The notes under the pieces were generated by a model, which saw nothing but the letters and a program-made list of their open reading frames with translations, ran no database searches and had not been told where the DNA came from. 64,000 nucleotides of DNA from Pseudomonadota bacterium. Its GTDB lineage: Bacteria; Pseudomonadota; Gammaproteobacteria; Burkholderiales; Burkholderiaceae_C. The DNA lies in contig JAIUPQ010000003.1 of the NCBI GenBank assembly GCA_020161145.1, positions 310,001 through 374,000 of the forward strand, in the 5' to 3' direction. Shown here piece by piece: positions 53,232 through 58,901 of this stretch. The position numbers and the translations under genes were made by a program. Each line of letters starts with the position of its first letter. Position 1 is the first letter of the stretch.

Positions 53232-54020
53232 TCAGACAAAGCGCATGGACACCGTGCCCAGGTCCTGGAAACGCACGGCCACGCTGTCGCCGGCCTTGAC
53301 GGCAATGGCCTCGGTCACGCCGCCCGTCATCACGAAGGTGCCGGCCGGGATCTCCTGCCCGCGCGCACCCAGGTGATTGGCCAGCATGGCCACCGCCGCC
53401 AGCGGATGGCCCAGCACGGCCGCGCCGGCCGCCATGGCGCGAATCTCGCCATTGATCTCCAGCACCACGCCCAGCGTGCGCAGGTCCAGCTCGTCCAGCT
53501 CGCGCGGCCGCCCGCCGATGACGAAGCGCGCGGATGAGGTGTTGTCGGCGATCACGCTCTTGAGGTCGAACTTGAAGTCGCGGTAGCGCGAGTCGATGAC
53601 CTCCACCGCCGGCAGCACCAGCTCGGTGGCCACCATCACCGCCGCCACGTGGCAGCCCGGCCCCCGCAGCGGGGCCTTGGTGACGATGCAGATCTCGGCC
53701 TCCACCTTGGGGTGAATCAGCTCGGCCAGCTTGATCTCACCGCCATCAGGGCGGGCCATGTAGTCGCTGATGAAGCCGAATACCGGCGTGGCCACGCCCA
53801 TCTGCTTCATCTTGGCAAACGAGGTCAGGCCGCATTTGAGTCCGGCCGTCCGGCTGCCGCGGGCCTCTTTGCGCCGGCGGATTTCGTCCTGGATGGCGTA
53901 GGCATCGTCCCAGTCCATGTCCGGGTGGTCGTCGGTGATCTTGGTCACGTCGCGCGCCTGCAGTTCGGCCTGCTCCAGGTGCTCGGCAAGGCCAAGAATG
54001 GTGTTCTGATCGAGTTTCAT
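53232..54020 (-). CDS. dmpH: 4-oxalocrotonate decarboxylase
   Basis: A 262-residue enzyme of the fumarylacetoacetase-like hydratase/decarboxylase family, converting 2-oxo-3-hexenedioate to 2-oxopent-4-enoate in the dehydrogenase branch of catechol meta-cleavage. The N-terminal DMDWDDAYAIQDEIRRRK, GLKCGLTSFAKMKQMG and VIDSRYRDFKFDLKSVIADN are typical of DmpH/XylI. It lies 18 bases after dmpE and is the last gene of the run. Confidence 0.88.
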   Translation of the reverse strand: MKLDQNTILGLAEHLEQAELQARDVTKITDDHPDMDWDDAYAIQDEIRRRKEARGSRTAGLKCGLTSFAKMKQMGVATPVFGFISDYMARPDGGEIKLAELIHPKVEAEICIVTKAPLRGPGCHVAAVMVATELVLPAVEVIDSRYRDFKFDLKSVIADNTSSARFVIGGRPRELDELDLRTLGVVLEINGEIRAMAAGAAVLGHPLAAVAMLANHLGARGQEIPAGTFVMTGGVTEAIAVKAGDSVAVRFQDLGTVSMRFV

Positions 54021-54038
54021 GAGGGCGTGTCCCTTTTG

Positions 54039-54821
54039 TCAGATGAAGCGGACCGACGTGCCACCCAGGCCGCCGACACTGCACACCAGGCTGTCGCCGG
54101 CCTTGACCGGCACCAGTGGCGACTGGGAGCCCGAGAGGATGATTTCGCCGGCCTTGAGCACGATGCCCAGCCGGCCCAGCGTGTTGGCCAGCCAGGCCAC
54201 GGCGTTGACGGGCGAGCCCTGCACGGCGGCGCCGGCCGAGGTGCTGATCAGCTCGCCGTTCTTCTCCAGCACCATGCCGGCCAGCGCCAGGTCGATGCGG
54301 CGCGGGTCTTTGCGCACGCCGCCCAGCGTGAGCACGCCGCAGGAGGCGTTGTCGGCCACGGTGTCCTGGATCTTGATCTTCCAGTCCTTGATGCGCGAGT
54401 CGACGATCTCGAAGCAGGGCATCACGCAGTCGGTGGCGCGCAGCACGTCGGCGGCCGTCACGCCCGGGCCCGTCAGGTCGCGCTTGAGCAAGAACGCCAC
54501 CTCGGCCTCGGCGCGCGGCGCAATCAGGGCGTCCGCCCGGATGGCCTCGCCCTCATTGAAGACCATGCCCGAGGTCATCTGCCCGAAGTCGGGCTGGTTG
54601 ACCTTGAGCATGTCCATCACCACCTTGCTGGTGACGCCGATCTTCTTGCCCACGATGGTCTCGCCGGCATCGAGCCGGCGCTGGATCATGCGCAACTGGA
54701 TCTGGTAGGCGTCCTCGATGGTGATCGCGGGTTCGCGATCGGTCAGCGGATCGACCGGCTGGCGCGCGATCAGGGCGGCATACAGCTCGTCGCCATAGCG
54801 TTGAATCTGGTCTTGGTTCAT
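54039..54821 (-). CDS. dmpE: 2-oxopent-4-enoate hydratase
   Basis: A 260-residue paralogue of the decarboxylase that adds water to 2-oxopent-4-enoate to give 4-hydroxy-2-oxovalerate. IGKKIGVTSK-type text (IVGKKIGVTSKVVMDMLKV), PRAEAEVAFLLKRDL and VDSRIKDWKIKIQDTVADN with metal-binding acids fit DmpE/XylJ. DmpE and DmpH form a complex in known pathways, in line with their adjacency. Confidence 0.88.
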   Translation of the reverse strand: MNQDQIQRYGDELYAALIARQPVDPLTDREPAITIEDAYQIQLRMIQRRLDAGETIVGKKIGVTSKVVMDMLKVNQPDFGQMTSGMVFNEGEAIRADALIAPRAEAEVAFLLKRDLTGPGVTAADVLRATDCVMPCFEIVDSRIKDWKIKIQDTVADNASCGVLTLGGVRKDPRRIDLALAGMVLEKNGELISTSAGAAVQGSPVNAVAWLANTLGRLGIVLKAGEIILSGSQSPLVPVKAGDSLVCSVGGLGGTSVRFI

Positions 54822-54849
54822 GGTGGCCTCTCAAGAAAACGAAGGGCCG

Positions 54850-54876
54850 CCCCGAGGTTTCTTGACCCCCTCGGGG
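54850..54876 (-). repeat. Intra-operon hairpin between dmpC and dmpE
   Basis: CCCCGAGG (54850-54857) and CCTCGGGG (54869-54876) form a perfect 8-base stem with an 11-base loop in the 87-base gap between the hydratase and dehydrogenase genes. It could affect mRNA stability or partially stop transcription between the two genes. Confidence 0.5.
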
Positions 54877-54908
54877 GGCCTGGCGCGCAGCGGCAGGTTT
54901 GGGGGCGC

Positions 54909-56369
54909 TCAGAACTTGAGCATCACGTTGCGCAACTCGGTGTAGAACTCGAACGAGTGCACACCCCCTTCACGGCCGATGCCCGATTGCTTGGAGCCGC
55001 CGAACGGCGTGCGCAGGTCGCGCAAGAACCAGCTGTTGATCCAGCACAGCCCGACCTCGATCTGCTGCGCCATGCGGTTGGCGCGGGCGATGTCCTGCGT
55101 GTAGATCGAGGTGGCCAGGCCGTAGCGGTTGTGGTTGATCTTGGCCACCACCTCATCCTCGGTGTCGAAGGGGCTGATGTGGCAGCACGGGCCGAACACC
55201 TCCTCGGTGACGACCGACGCCGTCTCGGGCAGACCCGTCCAGATGGTGGGCTGCACCCAGCAGCCGTCCTTCAGCGCGGCGGGCATGTCGGGCACGCCCC
55301 CGCCAGTGACCACGGTAGCGCCCTCGTCCCTGGCCTTCTGGTAGTAGGACAACACCTTGCTCTGGTGCTCTTTGCTGACCACGGGGCCGATCCGGGTGTC
55401 TTTGTCGAACGGACGGCCCGGCGTCATGGCCTCGGCCCTGGCCTTGAGGGCGGCGACGAACCGCTCGAAGAGGGGGCGCTCCACATAGACCCGCTCGGTG
55501 CCCAGGCAGACCTGGCCGGCGTTCTCGAAGCACGAGCGCGTGACGGTGTCCACCGCCAGGTCGAAGTCGCAATCGGCAAACACGGTGGCGGCGTTCTTGC
55601 CGCCCAGCTCCAGCGAGGCAGGCCGGATGCCCACCGCCGCCGCCTGCATGATGGCCGTGCCAGTGCGGGTCTCACCGGTGAAGGTGATGCCGTTGACGTC
55701 GGGGTGGCTGGTCAGGAAGGCGCCGGCCGAGTCGGGGCCAAAGCCATGCACCACGTTGTAGACGCCGGGCGGCACGCCCACCTTGTTCATCACCTCGCCC
55801 AGCAAAGTGGCCGTCAGCGGGGTTTCCTCCGAGGGCTTGACCACCACGGTGTTGCCGCAGGCCAGCGCCGGGCCCACCTTCCAGGTCATCAGCAGCAGCG
55901 GCAGGTTCCAGGGGCAGACCACGGCGATGACGCCGCGCGGCACGCGCACGCCGTAAGACAGCGCGGTCTTGCCATCGGGCGTGCGCATCTGGAAGCTCTC
56001 CGTGGACATGGTCTTGATGGTGTCGGCGAAGATCTGGAAGTTGGCCGCCCCGCGCGGAATGTCCACGTGCGAAGCCAGGTGCGCGGGCTTGCCGGTGTCG
56101 GCAATCTCGGCCTGCAAGAAGTCGTCGAAGCGGCGGTTGATCTCCTGGGCCACCGCGTCCAGCATGCCCACGCGCTCCACCACGCTGAGCCGGCCCCAGG
56201 GGCCTTTGAGCGCGGCCTTGGCCGCCGCCACGGCGGCATCGACCTCGGGCCGGCCGGCCTCGTACACCTGGCCGATCACCGTGTTGTCCACCGGGTTGCG
56301 GTCGGCAAACGTCTTGCCGCTGGTGTTCCTGACGAACTCACCGTGGATGAAGTTCAGTATTTCTTTCAT
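54909..56369 (-). CDS. dmpC: 2-hydroxymuconic semialdehyde dehydrogenase
   Basis: A 486-residue NAD-dependent aldehyde dehydrogenase. The catalytic Glu is in SLELGGKNAA and the catalytic Cys in ENAGQVCLGTERVYVE; the cofactor fold is in CPWNLPLLLMTWKVGPAL. HMS dehydrogenase identity (DmpC/XylG) follows from length, motifs and position between the dioxygenase and the hydratase. It oxidises the ring-cleavage product to 4-oxalocrotonate. Confidence 0.9.
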   Translation of the reverse strand: MKEILNFIHGEFVRNTSGKTFADRNPVDNTVIGQVYEAGRPEVDAAVAAAKAALKGPWGRLSVVERVGMLDAVAQEINRRFDDFLQAEIADTGKPAHLASHVDIPRGAANFQIFADTIKTMSTESFQMRTPDGKTALSYGVRVPRGVIAVVCPWNLPLLLMTWKVGPALACGNTVVVKPSEETPLTATLLGEVMNKVGVPPGVYNVVHGFGPDSAGAFLTSHPDVNGITFTGETRTGTAIMQAAAVGIRPASLELGGKNAATVFADCDFDLAVDTVTRSCFENAGQVCLGTERVYVERPLFERFVAALKARAEAMTPGRPFDKDTRIGPVVSKEHQSKVLSYYQKARDEGATVVTGGGVPDMPAALKDGCWVQPTIWTGLPETASVVTEEVFGPCCHISPFDTEDEVVAKINHNRYGLATSIYTQDIARANRMAQQIEVGLCWINSWFLRDLRTPFGGSKQSGIGREGGVHSFEFYTELRNVMLKF

Positions 56370-56468
56370 GGGACAGTCCTTTCAAATAGCCAATCCGGTG
56401 GCGGGCGGCGGTCACAGCGGCCGTGGCCGCCTCCCAGTGCACGACGTCCTGGGGGCTAGCCAGCTTCA

Positions 56469-57416
56469 TCAGGTGAACACCGACAGAAAGGCTTCGTTGA
56501 GCTTGCGGTCGTGATAGAAGATGGCCGGCCCGATCTCGGTGTCGTGCCAGGTGATCACCGGCTTGTCGGGGTAATGCGCATAGCCACCCGCGAAGACCTC
56601 GTTGCGATTGCCCGAGGGGTCGAAGAAGTAGATGGTTTCGCCCCGCGTGATGCCGTGCCGGGTGGGGCCGATGTCGATGGACACCCGGTAGCGCGAGAGG
56701 ATGTCCCCCGCCCGCAGCACCTGCTCCCAGGTGCCCAGCAGGAACGAGGCGTGGTGGAACTTGCCCTTGACCGGCTGGCGCACGAAGGCCACGTCGTGCG
56801 CCTTGTTCGAGCAGGTCAGAAAGGCGCCGATCATGAAGTCCTGCTCGGGGCCGGCCATGATCTGCTCGGCCAGCGAGAAGCCCAGCACCTCGCGAAAGAG
56901 CTTGACCGTGCCGTCCAGGTCGTCGCCGTACAGCAGGCAATGGTCGAAGCGGTGCGGCGCGATGCCCACCAGCCCCTCGGGCCAGGGCTCGGGATGCACG
57001 TCGGGGCCGTCGGTGCCGCAGCCATTGCCCACCACCTTCTTGTAGGCATACAACTCCATCACGTGGCCGGTGGGGATGGTGAAGCGAAAGCGCTCACCCG
57101 TCTCGGGGTGTTCGCCGGCCGCCACCCACGTCAGGCCCTGGCACAGACCCGAGGCCTCGATGTCGGCCGCCAGCCGCTTGAGCGTGGCCTCGGAATCGAC
57201 CTTCCAGCCCATGTAGTCCATGCCCGCCTCATCGGCCTCGCGCAACACCACGCTGTGGTGGTCGTGTTCGTCCCAGCCCTTGAGGAACACCCGGCCTGCG
57301 TTGTCGCGTGCCATCTCGCGCAGGCCCAGCACGTCGCGGTAGTGCTTGACCGCAGGTTCCATTTCAAGCACGCGGATCTGCACGTGCCCAGGACGCAATA
57401 CGCCGGTAAGTGCCAT
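56469..57416 (-). CDS. dmpB: Catechol 2,3-dioxygenase
   Basis: A 315-residue type I extradiol dioxygenase that opens catechol next to the hydroxyls. The iron ligands are H159 (FDHC), the His in KFHHASFLL (about 221-222) and E273 (GNRNEVFAGG), matching XylE His153/His214/Glu265 with a small offset. The two VOC-type halves are complete. First gene of the operon; AAGGAG lies 7 nt before the ATG, and a sigma-54 promoter is predicted about 85 bases upstream. Confidence 0.95.
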   Translation of the reverse strand: MALTGVLRPGHVQIRVLEMEPAVKHYRDVLGLREMARDNAGRVFLKGWDEHDHHSVVLREADEAGMDYMGWKVDSEATLKRLAADIEASGLCQGLTWVAAGEHPETGERFRFTIPTGHVMELYAYKKVVGNGCGTDGPDVHPEPWPEGLVGIAPHRFDHCLLYGDDLDGTVKLFREVLGFSLAEQIMAGPEQDFMIGAFLTCSNKAHDVAFVRQPVKGKFHHASFLLGTWEQVLRAGDILSRYRVSIDIGPTRHGITRGETIYFFDPSGNRNEVFAGGYAHYPDKPVITWHDTEIGPAIFYHDRKLNEAFLSVFT

Positions 57417-57498
57417 TCGAGTCTCCTTGTCGGGTGGGGGCCATCGTCGCGGCCGTCTTGCCGGGCCGCGTTCATCGGCTCGGCTCGCCTGGGTCTAT

Positions 57499-57514
57499 CG
57501 CAGACAACGTGCCA
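57499..57514 (-). promoter_or_regulatory. Predicted sigma-54 promoter of the meta-cleavage operon
   Basis: On the minus strand TGGCACGTTGTCTGCG fits the -24/-12 consensus TGGCACG-N4-TTGCW, with the invariant GG and GC at exact spacing and two changes in the -12 box. The GC lies about 84 bases before the dioxygenase ATG. It implies RpoN and a AAA+ activator. Confidence 0.65.
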
Positions 57515-57616
57515 GCCTGCGGCCGGCCGCCGCGGCGAAGCGGTCGCTCCCTCTACGGCAGCCCGCGATCCAGGGGTAGACCCCAGGCATGGACCCACAC
57601 GCTGGGGCAGCAGGGA

Positions 57617-57634
57617 TTGATCAAATGGTTGATC
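57617..57634. promoter_or_regulatory. XylR/DmpR-like upstream activating site
   Basis: TTGATCAAATGGTTGATC contains TTGATCAAATG, close to the XylR half-site TTGANCAAATC, followed by a second TTGATC; read as a dyad it gives GATCAA-N4-TTGATC on the minus strand. It lies about 130-145 bases before the predicted sigma-54 start, the usual place for such activator sites, and also upstream of the regulator gene. The overlapping ATCAAATGGTTG also fits an IHF-like consensus except for the first position. Confidence 0.55.
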
Positions 57635-57658
57635 GCCACCCTCTGTTGCCGGCTGCAA

Positions 57659-57676
57659 ATGACTCATATGAATCAT
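57659..57676. promoter_or_regulatory. Near-perfect 18-bp palindrome before the regulator
   Basis: ATGACTCATATGAATCAT differs from its own reverse complement at a single base pair. It lies between the upstream site and the regulator gene and contains the two upstream ATG candidates, so those are less likely to be true starts. Candidate operator for the regulator or another protein. Confidence 0.5.
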
Positions 57677-57760
57677 TCGCCCGCGTGCGCCGCAGGGGGC
57701 ACCCCCGGTGGCACGGTGCATGCTCACGGCATCAGGGCGCCAACCTTGCAAGCCCCCCTC

Positions 57761-58651
57761 ATGACCGCCACCAGCCCCCCGTCGCCAGGCCAGGCGCCGA
57801 TCCGGTTTGCGCAGTTGGCCGACCTGCTCGGTCGCCTGCACATCTCGACCACCGACGGCCGCATCTGGCTGGACGAGCAGCGCATGCTGCTGCTGCACGC
57901 CAGTGCCCTGGGTGCGTTGCGCCAGGACATGGTCGAGAGCCTGGGCACGGACATCGCCCGTCGGCTGTTCACCCGTCTGGGCTACCAGGCAGGCCGCTTC
58001 GGTGCCCAGATGGCGCGCAAGGCCCGCCCCTGCGCCTCGCTCAACGACTTGTTCGTCATCGGACCGCAGTGGCACTGCCTGGAGGGCATCGGCCTGGCCG
58101 GACCCGTGCGGCTGGTGTTCGACGCCGACAAGGGCGAGCACTACGGAGAGTGGGTGTGGCGGCAACCGCCTGAAGACGACGCGCCGCTGCGCCAGTCCGC
58201 CCCCGGTGCCACAACCCCTTGCTGGATGCAGGTCGGCTACGCCTCGGGTTTCGCCACCGAGTGGCTGGGCCGCCCCATCCTTTACCGCGAGGTGGCCTGC
58301 CAGGCCATGGGCCAGCCCGCCTGCCACCTCATCGGCAAGCCCGTCGAAGCCTGGGGCCGCGACGCGGCGGACGATTGGCAGTACCTGATGGTGGCCACCT
58401 TGCACGGCCCGCCCCGCGCCGACGGCGAGGTCGAGCGCGTCAGCCGCACCCTGGACAGCCTGCTGCACGGCGGGGACGAGCCCACGCAGAGGGCCTCGCT
58501 CGATGAGGTGGAAACCCTGCTGCTCAAGAAGGCGCTGGCGCGCGCCCAGGGCAACATCGCTGCCGCCGCCCGCCTGCTGGGCATCACGCGGCCGCAGATG
58601 GTGTACCGGCTCAAGAGCCGGGGCATCAACACCCCTGCGGCGAGGCCGTGA
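57761..58651 (+). CDS. DmpR/MopR-like phenol sensor lacking the AAA+ domain
   Basis: A 296-residue regulator. Residues about 16-120 are an XylR_N sensor domain (IWLDEQRMLLLHASALGALR), about 125-195 a V4R domain, and 250-290 a Fis-type helix-turn-helix (GNIAAAARLLGITRPQMVYR). The phenol-contact positions of MopR are kept as H105 and W133, and the zinc ligands as C154, E177, C180 and C188, numbered one below MopR, which supports this start over ATG 57659 or 57668. The whole central AAA+ sigma-54 activation domain (about 240 residues, with Walker motifs and GAFTGA) is missing without any frame break; residues 196-249 are only a linker. It is divergent from the meta-cleavage operon. It should bind DNA and aromatics but cannot by itself activate sigma-54 polymerase. 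Confidence 0.85.
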   Translation: MTATSPPSPGQAPIRFAQLADLLGRLHISTTDGRIWLDEQRMLLLHASALGALRQDMVESLGTDIARRLFTRLGYQAGRFGAQMARKARPCASLNDLFVIGPQWHCLEGIGLAGPVRLVFDADKGEHYGEWVWRQPPEDDAPLRQSAPGATTPCWMQVGYASGFATEWLGRPILYREVACQAMGQPACHLIGKPVEAWGRDAADDWQYLMVATLHGPPRADGEVERVSRTLDSLLHGGDEPTQRASLDEVETLLLKKALARAQGNIAAAARLLGITRPQMVYRLKSRGINTPAARP

Positions 58652-58678
58652 ATTGGCCCGGCGCTATGATGCGCCCCA

Positions 58679-58888
58679 CGTTGGTGCTCGCGCCGGTAGT
58701 CGTCTGGCGCAGTGAAACGGGAATCAGGGAGAGGCGTTCCTACGGAACCAATCCAACCTGAGCTGCCCCCGCAACGGTAAGCGGACGAGGTGCTTGCACC
58801 TTGCCTCGTGTTCAACGCCCACTGCAGGCCATCGGTCTGTGGGAAGGGCACACGGGGAATGTCTGCCAGCCCGGAGACCGGCCAACAC
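58679..58888 (+). ncRNA. Cobalamin riboswitch
   Basis: A leader of about 210 bases with GCTGCCCCCGCAACGGTAAG and the 3' B12 box GCCCGGAGACCGGCC near 58868-58882, in the order usual for AdoCbl riboswitches. GAAACGGGAATCAGG near 58714-58728 belongs to the conserved core. It sits upstream of cobB and would lower expression of the cob genes when cobalamin is plentiful. A TATGAT hexamer at 58665-58670 may be the promoter -10. Confidence 0.9.
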
Positions 58889-58901
58889 GTGGGTGCGTGT
58901 G

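Follow-up and report, generated by a model that had tools for sequence, protein, structure and literature searches.

The 64-kb stretch of DNA that was analysed (hereafter, the window) carries a regulator gene and, divergent from it, a catabolic operon. The regulator gene (57761-58651, + strand) encodes a protein of 296 amino acids. The operon, on the − strand, begins with a gene for a catechol 2,3-dioxygenase (C23O) of the dmpB/xylE type (56469..57416), followed by genes for a 2-hydroxymuconic semialdehyde dehydrogenase of the dmpC/xylG type (54909..56369; Pfam Aldedh), a 2-hydroxypentadienoate hydratase of the dmpE/xylJ type (54039..54821) and a 4-oxalocrotonate decarboxylase of the dmpH/xylI type (53232..54020), the last two of which match Pfam FAA_hydrolase and are named from gene order and likeness. 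Immediately 3′ of the regulator gene there is a cobalamin riboswitch (RF00174; 58665-58900, + strand; 79.6 bits).

The regulator comprises three domains: an XylR_N sensor domain (residues 21-121; 57821..58123, + strand; Pfam 3.2e-30), a V4R domain (residues 142-193; 58184..58339, + strand; 2.1e-8) and a Fis-type helix-turn-helix (HTH_8, residues 247-285; 58499..58615, + strand; 2.4e-12). Neither PF00158 nor any other AAA+ family was found by Pfam in the 296 residues at E up to 1, with six families listed, and a receiver domain is likewise absent. The Pfam assignments and the open reading frame, which lies in an uninterrupted frame of 413 amino acids, agree with the initial annotation, in which the protein was described as an XylR_N–V4R–HTH protein that lacks AAA+ and has a continuous frame; the linker, put there at about 55 residues, measures 53 by the Pfam bounds. 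The G+C content of the gene is 0.71 at codon position 1 and 0.52 at position 2, and at position 3 it is 0.89 in the sensor, 1.0 in the linker and 0.93 in the HTH, which fits coding along the whole gene.

Residues 19-200 of the regulator align without gaps with residues 20-201 of the MopR chain 5kbe. His106 and Trp134 of MopR, given in the initial annotation as its phenol contacts, and Cys155, Glu178, Cys181 and Cys189, given there as its zinc ligands, correspond to H105, W133, C154, E177, C180 and C188, i.e., all six are kept with an offset of one, as had been claimed. The sequence matches of the sensor in the PDB are PoxR, DmpR and MopR, and these are also the best structural matches of an AlphaFold model of moderate quality (mean pLDDT 66.9, pTM 0.54, 14 sequences). 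The regulator thus resembles the XylR/DmpR/MopR/PoxR family in its sensor and V4R domains, its ligand and zinc residues and its Fis-type HTH, whereas members of that family have an AAA+ domain with Walker A and GAFTGA and the regulator does not. Since the AAA+ domain is absent, the protein has neither the ATPase nor the contact to sigma-54, and it is expected not to fire sigma-54 transcription upon binding an aromatic.

A scan for relatives, limited to one genome per species, found 112, of which 80 were kept and the frames of 38 inspected. Walker A is present in 37 of these 38, the exception (L090) being cut off by the end of its contig. Among the 37, L081 carries a stop codon within the AAA+ part; L081 and L146 represent a Kordiimonas XylR-type regulator whose frame resumes downstream of the stop. 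The nearest relatives (L058-L073, from Variovorax, Zoogloea, Cognatazoarcus and others) keep the AAA+ domain, and in all 16 of 16 compared the sensor is 57-65% identical and the HTH 70-93% identical to that of the regulator; full-length regulators occur, for example, in Variovorax sp. J22R24 (L058) and in Cognatazoarcus (L060). By alignment with these relatives, the junction of the loss lies at approximately 58391..58426 (+ strand; about residues 211-222); the missing segment of about 298 residues comprises linker, AAA+ and lid. Measured between two fixed anchors the difference is exactly 298 residues against nine of 13 relatives, and 293-303 overall. In a tree of the sensors, the regulator is sister to the Variovorax protein L058 with support of 86/90, below the starred level, and the program flagged its long branch (0.57, vs 0.11 for L058) as unsure; a tree of the HTH end concurs with weaker support (83/68; branches of 0.31 and 0.12, respectively). 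The AAA+ part of this clade is found nowhere else in the source genome, the best of eight matches being, at 58%, an activator on another contig (C3). Among plasmid records there were 106 matches, all below 60% identity, one of which spans at least 80% of the query. These comparisons indicate that the regulator derives from a full-length sigma-54 activator of the XylR/DmpR family via the in-frame loss of about 298 residues.

Further XylR_N–V4R–HTH proteins without AAA+, for which a genome search had been suggested, were sought with PF06505 in four scans of 299, 399, 369 and 398 genomes taken from larger groups. These gave 97, 25, 30 and 25 matches, respectively, 162 of them distinct by hand count and 160 above the cut-off. 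Frames of at least 516 amino acids, taken as full-length by their size, account for 151 of the 160; the other nine are shorter than 500. These nine are the regulator itself, one frame that ends with its contig (G107, in which Walker A is present), five sensor-only frames from one genome (G979), one with a stop within the AAA+ part (G1408, which appears identical to L081) and one V4R-like protein without an HTH (G615), the last seven being judged by eye from their translations. Three further candidates were rejected: G306, a relative of the regulator, has a broken frame, and G134 and G508 were spurious as short XylR_N frames. Thus, with long frames counted as full-length, no second sensor-plus-HTH protein without AAA+ was found among about 160 XylR_N genes in the four scans. 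Nor did a scan of 16 genomes of the genus, two of them less than 90% complete, give another short form, the one apparent case being a broken frame. Across the other 15 species of the genus, the closest counterpart of the window's C23O is 58% identical, which is the level of a second copy in the source genome, so that a syntenic locus for comparison is absent from those species. A characterised XylR/DmpR protein without AAA+ was not found in the open-licence literature searched either. As judged from sequence, the AAA-less architecture is real, has arisen by domain loss and is unique within the sets searched.

The five sensor-only proteins of G979 (L138, L139, L140) have frames of 204-253 amino acids, lack an HTH by eye, and include two pairs in tandem; the same genome carries a full-length copy.

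The loci of the relatives differ from the window not only in the regulator. In 10 of them (L060-L062, L065-L071) an orthologous, full-length regulator gene and a C23O orthologous to that of the window (76-81% identical) are likewise divergent, but the two genes stand about 5-6.5 kb apart, and the genes between them are absent from the window locus. A scan of this neighbourhood for dioxygenase genes covered two loci. In L060, the genes that separate the regulator from C23O include those for Rieske alpha and beta subunits, a reductase, a short-chain dehydrogenase and a ferredoxin; L059 has a Rieske alpha gene in divergent orientation to its regulator. Judging by the subunit composition, and by the BenE transporters encoded close to the L058 and L059 regulators, this dioxygenase would be of the benzoate or toluate type, and the ancestral regulator may have served benzoate or toluate. 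The full-length relatives also have the MopR-type His and Trp, and the regulators of L059 and L060 adjoin a ring-hydroxylating dioxygenase rather than a phenol hydroxylase. Of the earlier description as a phenol sensor without its AAA+ engine, then, the loss of the motor and the retention of the residues and the HTH hold, whereas phenol as the ligand is uncertain. Seven residues of the DmpR pocket are named in one source (PMC7264223); when these were mapped by hand, six of the seven fell on residues common to the window protein and to L058, L059 and L062, and the seventh position (N95) is Lys in those three relatives.

The two ends of the regulator have changed to very different extents. Among sites that are invariant in 10 full-length relatives, 35 of 126 are changed in the sensor of the regulator, 0 of 33 in its HTH and, for the same 10 species, 10 of 216 in the C23O (Fisher p of 2e-9 for sensor vs C23O and 1e-4 for sensor vs HTH). 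With 16 relatives, 19 of 94 invariant sites are changed in the sensor and 0 of 26 in the HTH; when each of the 16 was left out in turn, no relative had more than 10 of 104 sensor sites changed. Relative-rate tests of the sensor against L058 with five outgroups gave p values of 4e-7 to 0.004, and those of the HTH end were non-significant (p 0.06-0.32), with the same lean on few sites (6-8 vs 2-3). Rapid change in the sensor alongside an unchanged HTH would suit a protein that is retained for binding DNA, the sensor of which would have been freed from contact with the AAA+ domain; a changed ligand would also fit.

The control region between the two divergent genes contains motifs of the kind that full-length activators of the family use, i.e., paired palindromic sites and sigma-54-type promoters. 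With GG and GC fixed and a maximum score of 11, one sigma-54-type promoter candidate (TGGCACGGTGCATGCT; 57709..57724, + strand; score 10) faces the regulator gene and another (TGGCACGTTGTCTGCG; 57499..57514, − strand; score 9) faces the C23O operon; a third site, also of score 9, at 57735 (+) was left out of the model. The whole 64-kb window has 26 such sites with scores of at least 9, three of them scoring 10, and the stricter pattern TGGC-N7-TTGC, with 14 matches in the window, has none in the control region. All 16 relatives scanned have a − strand site scoring 9-10 upstream of the regulator, and only seven (L058, L060, L065, L066, L069-L071) have a related + strand site scoring 8-10. No match to the strict sigma-70-type consensus was found in 57300-58900, a consensus from which such organisms may deviate.

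Between the two sigma-54-type motifs there are two palindromic candidate sites, UAS1 (ATTGATCAAATGGTTGATC; 57616..57634, + strand) and UAS2 (AATGACTCATATGAATCATT; 57658..57677, + strand), both inside the region 57600-57690 that had been put forward as a candidate for binding. By hand measurement their centres are about 43 nt apart, compared with 44 nt in 11 relatives, and their distances from the operon's promoter motif are about 110 and 153 nt. For the family, PMC6449761 describes palindrome pairs of 16-20 nt with centres 29-42 nt apart and 100-200 nt upstream of a -12/-24 promoter; the pair in the window is as described there apart from its spacing, one above the range, and its binding is predicted only. 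Matrices for UAS1, UAS2 and the two combined were built from nine relatives and each compared with 500 shuffles, of which 0, 17 and 0, respectively, reached the best score of the window. The UAS1 matrix peaks at the place of UAS2 and the UAS2 matrix at that of UAS1; with the UAS2 matrix alone, the window falls outside the top 10 of 664 stretches. The ATCAAAT core is absent from L059, L072 and L073, and has a different context in the closest relative, L058. Even with three mismatches allowed, the classic UAS (TTGATCAATTGATCAA) does not occur in the window, and the core of the published AphR motif occurs, at three mismatches, once in the control region and twice in the window, a result that 24 of 100 shuffles reached.

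A full-length DmpR homologue and a phenol hydroxylase, which the initial annotation proposed to look for in this genome, are both present on contig C3. There, a phenol hydroxylase, a second C23O (56% identical), a hydrolase, an acetaldehyde dehydrogenase and an aldolase are encoded beside an AphR/DmpR-like full-length activator of the XylR type, the only other XylR_N gene of the source genome. The only close copy of the hydratase-type gene is that in the window operon, the other match being a 37% identical paralogue of the decarboxylase type. The meta-cleavage pathway is thereby spread over two loci, with the hydratase-type gene in the window operon (53232-57416) and the aldolase and acetaldehyde dehydrogenase on C3. 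The window operon and the C3 locus look complementary, and with the hydratase found in the former only and the phenol hydroxylase, aldolase and acetaldehyde dehydrogenase encoded in the latter, it would be sensible for both to be expressed together.

The C3 activator also has an aphRS-like setting: a GntR-like gene, recognised by eye (L005:14249-14983), adjoins it, and an AphS-like operator (AATTATCGATATTT; L006:994-1007) with one mismatch lies at the phenol hydroxylase promoter in the C3 control region. Sites common to this promoter and the window were considered and set aside: with the first matrix the promoter and the window were the top 2 of 334 stretches, but the scores of the promoter were reached by 3, 338 and 100 of 500 shuffles (UAS1, UAS2 and combined), so that the likeness is weak by shuffles and by the combined matrix. 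The sigma-54 consensus has 10 matches in L006 at up to two mismatches, a site at 1028 among them, vs 12.2 expected, and the published AphR core has one match at two mismatches, equalled by 47 of 200 shuffles.

The best reading of these findings, although a tentative one that falls somewhat short of an even chance, is that the regulator is a ligand-tuned brake which binds DNA at sigma-54 promoters that it has no power to fire; it may be a former activator turned brake. The protein would pair into a dimer via its sensor, bind the two palindromic sites and be unable to open sigma-54 promoters. A motor-less protein bound to an enhancer pair could obstruct or dilute an activator. Braking would come about either through occupancy of the sites or through mixing with a full-length activator. 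The dimer contacts of DmpR are its sensors and linker (PMC7264223), and XylR is a repressor of its own transcription (PMC3469447). Were both the operon and the promoter of the regulator gene itself fired by the C3 activator, the two proteins would form a negative loop. Removal of only the AAA+ module would then have made of a sigma-54 activator a built-in brake. Such a protein would retain its aromatic sensing and its binding to the enhancer pair, its own synthesis would depend on a sigma-54 promoter under the control of a second activator, and it would restrain this second activator at the divergent C23O operon; in this full form the proposal is rather unlikely. The C3 activator may act at the window promoters, but against this stand the identity of just 54.5% between the two HTHs and the likeness of its own promoter to the motif of the clade with one matrix of the three. 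Against the brake are also to be counted the loss of most of the linker that would form the dimer, the presence of the regulator-side sigma-54 motif in only seven of 16 relatives, the rapid sensor change, which could equally be decay, the occurrence of the form as a singleton, the failure of the UAS2 matrix on its own to single out the window, the peak of the UAS1 matrix at the UAS2 place, and the lack of TGGC-N7-TTGC in the control region and of the ATCAAAT core in L059, L072 and L073.

Decay was not among the roles listed in the initial annotation. In this reading, the motor and the dioxygenase genes would have been lost in a recent or drifting loss-of-function deletion and the protein would be useless and decaying, a serious contender that is nonetheless well below an even chance. 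It is favoured by the short form being a singleton across the scans, by the longer branches than those of the sister L058 at both ends of the protein, by the excess of changed invariant sites in the sensor over that of any relative left out and by the genes missing between regulator and C23O. Because the rate pattern cannot place the deletion in time, it is also compatible with decay following a recent loss. Against decay, the frame is unbroken, no invariant HTH site is changed in either comparison, and the named ligand and zinc residues, the palindromes and the sigma-54-type motifs are all retained.

The remaining role listed earlier, beside repressor, competitor and mixed-oligomer partner, was that of a ligand-responsive regulator of sigma-70 promoters, and this is improbable. 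Because sigma-54-type motifs face both genes and a strict sigma-70-type match is absent, a role as brake or competitor is favoured over one as sigma-70 activator, even if the strict consensus may not be that of the host. PrrA/RegA, which have the layout of a receiver plus a Fis HTH, are like the regulator in joining a sensor to a Fis-type HTH without AAA+, but the sensor is a two-component receiver domain in the former and of the aromatic type in the latter. Enhancer-binding proteins without GAFTGA have been reported active at sigma-70 promoters, and the GAFTGA-less NtrC of R. capsulatus and Caulobacter and VspR are, as described in PMC10274813, like the regulator without the usual sigma-54 drive; these proteins retain the AAA+ domain, however, whereas the regulator has lost it.

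An assembly artefact, in which the AAA+ domain was dropped by the assembler, is very improbable: the eight strong AAA+ activator genes of the genome might confuse an assembler, but the junction is well inside a 490-kb contig, with about 122 kb to its nearer end, in a genome rated 100% complete, the loss is in frame between clean domains, and the clade's own AAA+ part is absent from the rest of the genome.

To return to the brake, a functional likeness is MphX, a repressor of phenol hydroxylase genes and thus a negative factor of a phenol operon that acts beside a DmpR-type activator (PMC3063778). It is, however, an unrelated protein (COG4313) in which its authors found no HTH, whereas the regulator has HTH_8 and XylR_N; as a precedent for a sensor-plus-HTH protein it was ruled out. 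Should the regulator be a brake, it would be a natural case of an enhancer-binding activator without its motor serving as a ligand-controlled DNA-binding brake, would mark one simple path from such activators to repressors and would provide a small sensor-plus-HTH protein for study. Should it be a relic, the locus would be a record of a catabolic operon breaking down along with its regulator.

A mirror image of the regulator was seen in one of the relatives. Near the full-length regulator of L059, a gene at L059:4052-5122 encodes a protein of 357 amino acids that has Sigma54_activat, the lid and HTH_8 and lacks the sensor, and its HTH stretch is 72.5% identical to that of the regulator in the window.
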